The notes under the pieces are model-generated. The model ran no database searches. It was given only the letters and a program-made list of their open reading frames with translations, and was not told the origin of the DNA. Source: Fictibacillus enclensis (GTDB taxonomy: Bacteria; Bacillota; Bacilli; Bacillales; Fictibacillaceae). From it: 64,000 nt of DNA. Positions 10,679 through 13,533 of this stretch are shown piece after piece. The stretch lies in contig NZ_KQ758617.1 of the NCBI RefSeq assembly GCF_001457035.1, positions 1,736,001-1,800,000 on the forward strand, given 5' to 3'. The first letter of the stretch is position 1. Every line of letters begins with the position of its first letter. Position numbers and translations under genes: made by a program.

Positions 10679-11269
10679 TTAATTAAAATACTTATTAATT
10701 TGCGAAATCGCATGACTGTCCATCAGTGCTTTTCCGTATTCGATCACCCTGTGGCTCGTAATCGTAGATGAACTGCCAAACTCGGCCATCAGCGCAATCA
10801 AAGTATCCAATTCGATTTCTGTAAGGTCATGTTCTTCAAATTTCAAGTAAAAACAATTTTCGAACGAGTAGAGAACGCCAGCATCCAAATTTAAAGGTTT
10901 CAGGCGTTGTGCTAGTGCAATCACATCTTCAAAGGAAGAAAACTCATAGAAGATTTCGTCACTTTCATCAAGTGTAACCTGCATTTCAATATAGTCATCA
11001 TCGTATTCATCTTCAAGTTCATACTCGTTATGCCCTTTTGTCACAATGACCACCATTCCTTGCGCCGGTAAAGCAAAAACTTCAACAGCGATCGGTCCGT
11101 CTGCTTTAAACCCTACTTCATCGTCTGCTTCGGTCATCATGTCTCGGAATAATTGGTGAACTTTTGGAATGTCCTGCCATATCTCATCTTTGGATATTCC
11201 GCGTTCCTTTAAATCATCAAACGTTAGGAAGATTTTGATCTTGTTATAAGTTAATCGCTCTACCCGCAT
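10679..11269 (-). CDS. mecB: MecA-family adaptor protein (YpbH/MecB)
   Basis: This 196-residue protein is homologous to MecA, the adaptor that delivers substrates to ClpC-ClpP. It has the N-terminal substrate-binding part (MRVERLTYNKIKIFLTFDDL), an acidic linker and the C-terminal ClpC-binding domain (about residues 105-196). B. subtilis carries two such proteins, MecA and YpbH; synteny with gudB-ypdA and the ypb genes places this one as YpbH. The ATG is followed by the family-typical N-terminus. Which ClpC substrates it handles cannot be read from sequence. Confidence 0.88.
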   Translation of the reverse strand: MRVERLTYNKIKIFLTFDDLKERGISKDEIWQDIPKVHQLFRDMMTEADDEVGFKADGPIAVEVFALPAQGMVVIVTKGHNEYELEDEYDDDYIEMQVTLDESDEIFYEFSSFEDVIALAQRLKPLNLDAGVLYSFENCFYLKFEEHDLTEIELDTLIALMAEFGSSSTITSHRVIEYGKALMDSHAISQINKYFN

Positions 11270-11351
11270 TTCTGGTCCCCCTTACATTCGATTCCGCATC
11301 TCTTTACTTACACTATATGAGTGAGAAGGCAGTTGGTGATTAATGATCCTC

Positions 11352-12296
11352 TCACTTCTGTGACCAAAGAGGCGGTCGTTTTTCTTCTTTTAATTTTTGG
11401 TGAATCCATTGATCCCATTCCGTTTTGGTGTTCCCTATTATAATGTCTTTAAATTTGGTTTTTATATCATTGGATAAATATTCAAGTCCCAGGCCTCCCA
11501 AGCCAATTTGGAGGGAGGGATGGTGATATGCCGCCTGCTCTATCCATTCAACTGTTGACAGCAAATGCTCTTCGATGGTGCAGGAAACAAATAGCAATTT
11601 AGGATCAACCTCCCGGATGACAGTATCGAGATCTTCAGGAGGGATGCCTTCACCGAGGTAAATCACCTCAAATCCTTTTTGCCGCAGGTAAAGTGTAAAA
11701 ATCAAAAGGCCCAGTTCGTGAGTCTCTTTTAGTCCGCATACTGCTATCACCCTTGGAAGATAGCTGTCCACAGGAAGATGAAACATAATATTACCAATCT
11801 TCCCTTTTAAAAAGCTGGAGGCATAGTGCTCATGGGCCACCGTTATTTTTTGGTTTTCCCACATGTCACCTACCTTAACAAGCAATGAACCCAGAATGTC
11901 GATGGTCACTTTTTCGAGAGTAAAAAGGCTGAAAGCCCTGTCCATCACTTCCTTGGCTTTGCGCTCATTGAATGACATCAGAGCGGAAAGAAGCTCGTCC
12001 GACAGCTGCATTGCTACATCCTTCTGCCCACTGCTTTCCACAACAATCTGTGATATTTTATTCCCATGGTGTTCCAGCAGGTCGACTGCCTGGCTTATTG
12101 TAAAACCATGTTTAATTTTATTCATAAGCCATTTGATAATATAGATATGTTCATCAGTATAAAGCCGGTGACCCGCTTCGTTTCTCTTGGGCTCAATGAT
12201 CGAATATCTCCGCTCCCATGCACGAAGTGTTCCTGCCTGGATGCCAAGCATTTTAGACACGGCTTTTATATTGTATTTTCCTTCCGGTGATGCCAT
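11352..12296 (-). CDS. MerR-type regulator with B12-binding domain, CarH/LitR photoreceptor family
   Basis: This 314-residue protein has an N-terminal MerR winged helix (NIKAVSKMLGIQAGTLRAWERRY, residues 9-31 region), a four-helix cap domain and a C-terminal cobalamin-binding Rossmann domain. In the cap, Trp146 is followed after nine residues by Glu156-His157, the W-x9-EH signature of CarH. In the cobalamin domain Glu191-Thr192-His193 with Gly196 supplies the lower axial His ligand. CarH/LitR proteins bind adenosylcobalamin, repress as dark tetramers and release DNA when light breaks the cobalt-carbon bond. The ATG at 12296 has GGAGG 8 bases upstream; a TTG five codons earlier overlaps that site. 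No carotenoid or photolyase genes are adjacent, so the targets are unknown. Confidence 0.85.
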   Translation of the reverse strand: MASPEGKYNIKAVSKMLGIQAGTLRAWERRYSIIEPKRNEAGHRLYTDEHIYIIKWLMNKIKHGFTISQAVDLLEHHGNKISQIVVESSGQKDVAMQLSDELLSALMSFNERKAKEVMDRAFSLFTLEKVTIDILGSLLVKVGDMWENQKITVAHEHYASSFLKGKIGNIMFHLPVDSYLPRVIAVCGLKETHELGLLIFTLYLRQKGFEVIYLGEGIPPEDLDTVIREVDPKLLFVSCTIEEHLLSTVEWIEQAAYHHPSLQIGLGGLGLEYLSNDIKTKFKDIIIGNTKTEWDQWIHQKLKEEKRPPLWSQK

Positions 12297-12317
12297 TTCT
12301 ATATCCTCCAATAGCTG

Positions 12318-12335
12318 ATTATACCTATTAGTATA
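12318..12335 (-). promoter_or_regulatory. promoter -10 and inverted repeat before the CarH-like gene
   Basis: The 16-bp inverted repeat TATAC-N6-GTATA (12320-12335) overlaps a TATAAT -10 hexamer on the minus strand (12318-12323). No good -35 precedes it. The position would allow autoregulation by the MerR-type protein; this is inference. Confidence 0.4.
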
Positions 12336-12482
12336 GCGGACAGATTTACTGGTGTAAAATTTCAGGAATCCGGAGAAAAACCAATTTTTACTGAATACTC
12401 TTTTTTTATTTGGAGATTTTATTTTTCATTCCCCTAATATGCTGTTTGGTAAAACACATTTTAACTGAAAATTGCTAAAAAG

Positions 12483-12506: not shown

Positions 12507-13139
12507 TCAATCTTCATGTATGCTTAAAATCCTGAATCCGGACTGGCTGAGCTTTTCCGTAAATTTATTAAGGTTAGGGGTTTTTTCTACCTTCATCACC
12601 ATCCTTCTGACCAATTTATCCGTCTCATCAAAAGTGGTTAACGAAATAATGTTTTCATGAAATTGTTTTGTAATTTCAGACAGTCTCGCAATCCTTCCTT
12701 CCGCTTCCAAAGAGGCAAAGGCGATTCGCACTCCAGGCATTTTCATGCCAAACGCGCTTTGAAACTGTTCAAGCACATCATACCTTGTGATAATGCCAAG
12801 GAGCACATTATGTTTATCCGCTACCGCAACGATTGGCATGTCGTTGACCATAAGAAGCGTTTGTTCAAACATTTCATCCTCAGACACAGCCTGGTTTTTG
12901 TACCTTGAAATTTCCCCGGCTTTTGTTTTCAGCAAAAATTGCTCTTTTGACAAAGAGCTTATGAAGCAGGACTCATAGATGAAGTGGCGTGTGATGATTC
13001 CCTGATAGCGTTTTTCCTCAACAACCGGTATGCCATCCAGGTCATGTTTTTCCATCAAATCCAATGCCTCCTGGACTGATGCATTCTTTTGGATAAAATG
13101 TGTTTTCCTCAATGGAACCATATGACTTTTCACAAACAT
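12507..13139 (-). CDS. CBS-pair protein with C-terminal ACT-like region
   Basis: This 210-residue cytoplasmic protein has two CBS motifs (about residues 7-60 and 75-130; DLDGIPVVEEKRYQGIITRH and MPIVAVADKHNVLLGIITRYD) and a C-terminal beta-alpha-beta region (about 140-210). CBS pairs sense adenosyl ligands; related stand-alone proteins in Firmicutes include the cyclic-di-AMP binders CbpA and DarB and the AcuB-type CBS-ACT proteins. Which of these applies cannot be decided. GGGGAGG precedes the ATG, and a perfect 9-bp inverted repeat lies just before that ribosome site. Confidence 0.72.
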   Translation of the reverse strand: MFVKSHMVPLRKTHFIQKNASVQEALDLMEKHDLDGIPVVEEKRYQGIITRHFIYESCFISSLSKEQFLLKTKAGEISRYKNQAVSEDEMFEQTLLMVNDMPIVAVADKHNVLLGIITRYDVLEQFQSAFGMKMPGVRIAFASLEAEGRIARLSEITKQFHENIISLTTFDETDKLVRRMVMKVEKTPNLNKFTEKLSQSGFRILSIHED

Positions 13140-13159: not shown

Positions 13160-13191
13160 CATGTAAATTTTCCCGTCTCACTATTTACATG
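13160..13191. repeat. perfect 9-bp inverted repeat in the leader of the CBS gene
   Basis: CATGTAAAT and ATTTACATG are separated by 14 bases and lie about 20 bases before the CBS gene start, next to its ribosome-binding site. No T-run follows, so this is not a terminator. It could be a protein operator (two ATGTAAA half-sites about 23 bp apart) or an RNA hairpin close to the ribosome site. Confidence 0.55.
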
Positions 13192-13314
13192 AGCAGGGCC
13201 ATCTTTATTAAAATTATGAGAATATTTAAAAATCTCTTATTGTAAATCCTGTAAAATTGACTTATCATTAAAATTACAAACCGATAAATTTCAAATAGAT
13301 TGGAGAGGAACAGC

Positions 13315-13533
13315 ATGACTTTATTAAAAATCAAGACAAAATCTCTCGTGTTAAATAAAGATCTTGAATATAACGAAAAACTGGGTCTTCCCGTTGAAGT
13401 TTATTGCCCTCTGGCCCATCAAACCATTGCTTTCGGAAGGATTGAAACGCTGGATGACCATTTTGTCGTGATCAATTCGGAAAAACATGCAATTGCCGAT
13501 TATTTCTTCTTTGGCTGCCCATGTGCCGTCTAA
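13315..13533 (+). CDS. orphan 72-residue protein ending in Cys-Pro-Cys
   Basis: A small plus-strand gene among minus-strand neighbours. GGAGAGGAA lies 5-6 bases before the ATG at 13315, which is preferred over an upstream in-frame ATG at 13300. The protein begins MTLLKIKTKSLVLNK, has a central LPVEVYCPLAHQTIAFG and ends FFFGCPCAV; the C-terminal CxC could bind metal or a thiol. No transmembrane segment and no recognised family. It lies divergent to the CBS gene and convergent with ypbF. Confidence 0.6.
   Translation: MTLLKIKTKSLVLNKDLEYNEKLGLPVEVYCPLAHQTIAFGRIETLDDHFVVINSEKHAIADYFFFGCPCAV

Follow-up and report, generated by a model that had tools for sequence, protein, structure and literature searches.

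To our knowledge, nearly all that is understood about class I LitR/CarH proteins comes from their control of carotenoid genes. In Thermus thermophilus, carH adjoins the genes for phytoene synthase and photolyase. CarH proteins bind tandem 11-bp repeats of the form nnnnTnnACAn, and the operators of Bacillus megaterium LitR (CarHBm) consist of four 11-bp TnnACA repeats that overlap a -35 or a -10 (PMC9304148); this protein controls crt genes (PMC6739363). CarH is defined by two motifs, Wx9EH and ExHx2Gx41SxV/Tx22-27GG (PMC8156234), and the published light signature comprises GxxW, EH, GxxH, and GxxxP (PMC11796333).

Here we analyze a gene of Fictibacillus enclensis (GCF_001457035.1, contig NZ_KQ758617.1, 1,736,001-1,800,000); coordinates are positions in this 64-kb stretch of DNA, the window. 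A sequence-only reading had proposed that the gene encodes a CarH/LitR-type B12 photoreceptor regulator that lacks carotenoid neighbors. Like B. megaterium LitR, the product is a class I LitR/CarH protein from Bacilli that carries the AdoCbl motifs, and it shares with Thermus CarH the fold, the Wx9EH cap, and the ExHxxG ligand motif. Unlike Thermus carH, the gene does not adjoin phytoene synthase or photolyase genes. Our main reading, to which we give a probability of about 0.7, is that the protein is an orphan of this class, a regulator whose crt target is gone and which is most likely still an AdoCbl- and light-responsive repressor with at least one remaining target; its cofactor binding, light response, and DNA binding we infer.

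The regulator and its cofactor site

The regulator gene (11352..12296, minus strand) encodes 314 amino acids. Its start codon is the ATG at 12296, upstream of which lies TTGGAGG, and not the TTG at 12311. The protein consists of a MerR helix-turn-helix domain (residues 8-75), a four-helix cap (100-168), and a Rossmann B12-binding domain (182-288), and the Pfam models MerR_1, B12-binding_2, and B12-binding each score over their cut-offs. Pfam and a residue check recover the protein features that had been read from the sequence, namely the MerR domain, W146, E156, H157, and H193 with its E-x-H-x-x-G motif, and the spacing is indeed nearly that of Thermus, with 36 residues from H157 to H193 as against 35. 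W146, E156, and H157 form the Wx9EH cap motif, and E191, H193, G196, S238, T240, G267, and G268 make up the longer motif with gaps of 41 and 26 residues, SxT and GG having been located by direct inspection of the protein sequence. This spacing agrees exactly with the published definition (PMC8156234), and thus both CarH-defining motifs are present.

Three of the four elements of the light signature are found in the regulator, G215xxxP219 among them. The fourth, GxxH, has K190 in place of its Gly, where the Thermus protein (28-30% identical) has Gly174; orthologues carry G, N, K, or other residues at this position. The substitution need not abolish binding because the replaced Gly touches the corrin via its main-chain carbonyl (PMC11796333). 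The NCBIfam equivalog model for CarH (NF052513), which is narrow, gives the regulator 133.9 bits, under its 400-bit cut-off. An AlphaFold2 model built from five sequences (mean pLDDT 76) finds full-length Thermus CarH (5c8d) as its best solved match in Foldseek (E 2.1e-16). For the cobalamin region of the model, alignments with photocobilin and CarH domains reach Z scores of 18-20 over about 190-210 residues, compared with 17 for AerR/AppA and 15.6 for methionine synthase. By these sequence and fold tests the protein is a real class I LitR/CarH-type regulator of an ordinary kind, and one that is ordinary in Bacilli. The proposed assignment is well supported by motifs and fold as well as by the phylogeny and orthologue operators described below.

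An orthologue group linked to mecB

A close homologue occurs in 62 of 100 relatives, F. enclensis itself counted. We fetched 45 loci for comparison, and in 44 of these the regulator lies directly upstream of mecB/ypbH, a nearly invariant neighbor that in F. enclensis (10679..11269, minus strand; PF05389) encodes a MecA-family ClpC adaptor paralogue; one lineage (L066) has no mecB there. The wider neighborhood runs fer-ypbB-recQ-ypbD-ypbF...ddl-gudB-ypdA, most orthologues are directly downstream of an ORF of ~255 amino acids, which is a metallophosphoesterase (ypbG-like) where tested (L049), and the regulator-mecB arrangement recurs in loci L155 and L156, which belong to a different order of the class. 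In a maximum-likelihood tree, the mecB-linked rows form one group (97/99); a second Bacillales group is its sister, and a third lies separately. The Bacillales CarH-like groups B and C likewise have full-length MerR and cobalamin domains, but they are separate clades without mecB synteny, and several of their members sit beside crtN or phytoene synthase genes. Judged on phylogeny and gene order, the F. enclensis regulator is a member of a vertically inherited Bacilli orthologue group. Phages yielded no full-length relative of the regulator, and its relatives on plasmids are confined to CarH of the Thermus type and to MerR proteins that are more distant.

These results change how two points of the sequence-only reading are to be taken. 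The regulator does lack carotenoid neighbors, but this is less surprising than was implied, as no crt gene adjoins the regulator in any locus of the mecB-linked group that we read, and the group appears to act on crt in trans. Light control had also been considered odd in a soil spore-former; it is less strange in a vertically inherited Bacilli group whose relatives carry CarH operators.

All four cofactor residues (W, E, H, H) are kept in 39/45 orthologues, and one or more are lost in the other six (L057, L073, L078-L081). These degenerate orthologues, which keep their position at mecB in separate lineages, may be B12-independent regulators or decaying genes. The four most degenerate (L078-L081) are dispersed over the tree, three with intact sisters next to them, a pattern suggestive of loss on several independent occasions.

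Upstream of the regulator is a gene for a CBS-domain protein (12507..13139, minus strand), separated from it by an intrinsic terminator (12506-12483). The CBS-domain gene is conserved at the regulator locus in many families, and its product has sub-threshold similarity to the c-di-AMP-binding protein CbpA (65 bits against a cut-off of 150). A 77-aa ORF at 13300-13533 (plus strand), antisense to its neighbors, matches no Pfam family and has homologues in the equivalent position in several other genera.

Operators at carotenoid genes and at the regulator's own promoter

Among the relatives, the regulator orthologue and the phytoene/squalene synthase family PF00494 tend to occur together (38/62 genomes with the orthologue, 7/38 without it; p 3e-5 by a statistic that ignores phylogeny). 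We surveyed the crtN promoters of 20 relatives that have the regulator and, elsewhere in the genome, a crtN-crtN-phytoene-synthase-type operon. A double or triple TnnACA repeat is present within 200 bp upstream of crtN in 19 of the 20, where 0.37 would be expected. The repeats are mostly on the reverse strand and overlap TATAAT-like -10 sequences. No second full-length CarH (E<1e-15) appears among the matches listed for the crt-bearing relatives. Photolyase promoters, which served as a specificity control, have TnnACA repeats in 2 of 23 cases (0.41 expected), and photolyase was rejected as a general target of the LitR group on that count. One exception among the 23 is relative G098 (L194, phr start about 711), in which a double TnnACA repeat lies just upstream of the photolyase gene.

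The regulator's own sigma-A promoter (12330..12358, minus strand) has a -35 TTTACA (12358-12353), a 17-nt spacer, and a -10 TATACT (12335-12330); it matches at 10/12 positions and is conserved across orthologues. The operator consensus in orthologues is TATACAAAGTTTACACA, and its TTTACA is the -35 of the regulator. An exact double TnnACA repeat upstream of the regulator is found on the coding strand in 20/45 orthologues and on the other strand in none of the 45. With a leave-out weight matrix, the predicted operator over the -35 beats every same-locus background window in 28/45 orthologues; none of the four most degenerate orthologues has such an operator above background. Taken together, the repeats at crtN and at the own -35 indicate that the most probable role of the group is repression of crt in trans together with autorepression. 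A strict 17-mer had left the regulator itself as the sole conserved target, a view overturned by the repeats at the crt loci; the 17-mer missed the crt operators because these are mostly on the opposite strand, lie over the -10, and differ from it in sequence.

This operator design, upstream of litR and crtN in Fictibacillus relatives, is that of CarHBm. From the operators and the trans-acting control of crt, the regulator is probably orthologous to B. megaterium LitR. By analogy with the published CarH mechanism, AdoCbl would be held in the dark by H193 below and by the W146/E156/H157 cap above. The AdoCbl-bound protein would then oligomerize, and its MerR domains would bind the tandem 11-bp TnnACA repeats and block the sigma-A promoter until the Co-C bond was cleaved by green, blue, or UV light and the DNA was released. 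In relatives, the regulator would target its own gene and, in trans, the crtN-crtN-phytoene-synthase-type operon.

F. enclensis differs from B. megaterium on both counts, in that Fictibacillus has no crt operon and the F. enclensis regulator gene has no full operator. A complete TnnACA operator was not found at its promoter; what is present is a putative decayed CarH operator (12351..12367, minus strand) with a distal TCCTGA (12367-12362) and a proximal TACACC (12356-12351) where orthologues have TATACAAAGTTTACACA. The distal repeat is lost in four of seven Fictibacillus, among them F. enclensis, F. solisalsi, and F. fluitans; the predicted operator is intact in the remaining three, which include F. 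terranigra.

The inverted repeats that had been put forward as binding sites fare less well. The 16-bp repeat TATAC-N6-GTATA (12320..12335, minus strand) exists and covers the -10 TATACT as described, and it is kept in six of seven Fictibacillus. It is absent outside the genus, however, and is not of the CarH type, so it is probably not an operator. The repeat at 13160-13191 is perfect in F. enclensis, imperfect in F. solisalsi, and absent in more distant congeners, and we do not retain it as a binding site. Inverted repeats were thus rejected as operators both for lack of conservation and for their symmetry, since CarH binds direct repeats.

With mecB next to the regulator in 44/45 loci and also in another order, and with a short regulator-mecB gap in Fictibacillus in which no terminator was detected, the regulator might be thought to control chiefly its own locus and thereby place a ClpC adaptor under light or B12 control. 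The gap holds a sigma-K-like promoter of mecB (11312..11337, minus strand), with ACC (11337-11335), 15 nt, and CATATAGT (11319-11312). The pattern ACC-N15/16-CATAnnnT precedes mecB in 35 of 46 orthologous gaps, where 0.22 would be expected, which suggests late mother-cell expression of this adaptor paralogue across Bacilli. Because mecB has this promoter of its own, and because terminators follow the regulator in some lineages (L060, L064), mecB is a weak target candidate. The lineage without mecB at this place and the decay of the own operator in F. enclensis also speak against such local control, which we regard as quite improbable.

A genus without carotenoid genes

The closest named relatives of F. 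enclensis are F. solisalsi (95%), F. fluitans (92%), and F. terranigra (82%). Profile searches of the F. enclensis genome with PF00494 and with the photolyase family PF03441 gave no match, and neither did searches of six other Fictibacillus genomes. The reported absence of crt and phr genes near the regulator therefore holds at the locus and, by these two profiles, genome-wide. The unusual feature is that a whole genus is without crt genes, rather than that the regulator has no crt neighbors. As all seven genomes are without PF00494, loss in a common ancestor is the simplest reading.

The F. enclensis genome has a gene for a cobalamin adenosyltransferase and also a methylmalonyl-CoA mutase-type locus, and AdoCbl should therefore be present in the cell. 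The regulator could then be a sensor of B12 status that represses its target when the coenzyme is plentiful, its response to light being incidental. The same residues bind AdoCbl, the adenosyltransferase is nearly universal across the genomes compared, and it is hard to see what F. enclensis, which has no crt or photolyase light-protection gene left, would gain from responding to light. Known photoreceptors nevertheless have the same Wx9EH cap, and the crtN operators in relatives are of their kind as well; we consider a pure B12 sensor unlikely.

Among Fictibacillus congeners the regulator has a dN/dS of 0.06-0.09 (dS from 0.23 to about 2, with saturation at the high end), and its cofactor residues are intact in 7/7. 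In a genus without crt, these values indicate that selection seems to have continued after the crt loss, and continued selection points to a remaining target. That the gene is instead a relic on its way out, with no important target after the loss of crt and the decay of its own operator, would fit the absence of PF00494 in 7/7 Fictibacillus, the decayed operator in 4/7, and the independent degeneration in other lineages (L078-L081). The low dN/dS across the crt-less congeners and their intact cofactor residues argue against a relic, which we judge rather unlikely. We therefore favor an orphan repressor: in Fictibacillus the crt operon has been lost and, in F. enclensis, the own operator has decayed, yet purifying selection has kept the protein, which most likely continues to work as a repressor with at least one remaining target.

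A convincing TnnACA operator was not found elsewhere in the F. enclensis genome. Only two exact triple TnnACA repeats occur in it, and none in a reversed-pattern control; these candidates lie upstream of a 50-aa ORF (L095, about 1500, plus strand) and of glmU (L096, about 1500, minus strand). Double repeats with a -10 show no excess over control, and the additional 17-mer sites with one mismatch in congeners appear to be coding or incidental.

Carotenoid control is a common role of LitR/CarH and does not define class I. The operator survey suggests a rule for Bacilli, in which a single vertically inherited LitR beside mecB acts in trans on the crt operon. A genus that keeps an intact, strongly selected photoreceptor after the loss of its carotenoid genes offers a clean natural test for another job of B12 photoreception. 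There is a somewhat less than even chance, in our tentative estimate, that Fictibacillus LitR was rewired after the crt loss to a non-carotenoid gene set under AdoCbl and light; if so, a spore-former would have a green-light/B12 regulon that is independent of carotenoids.
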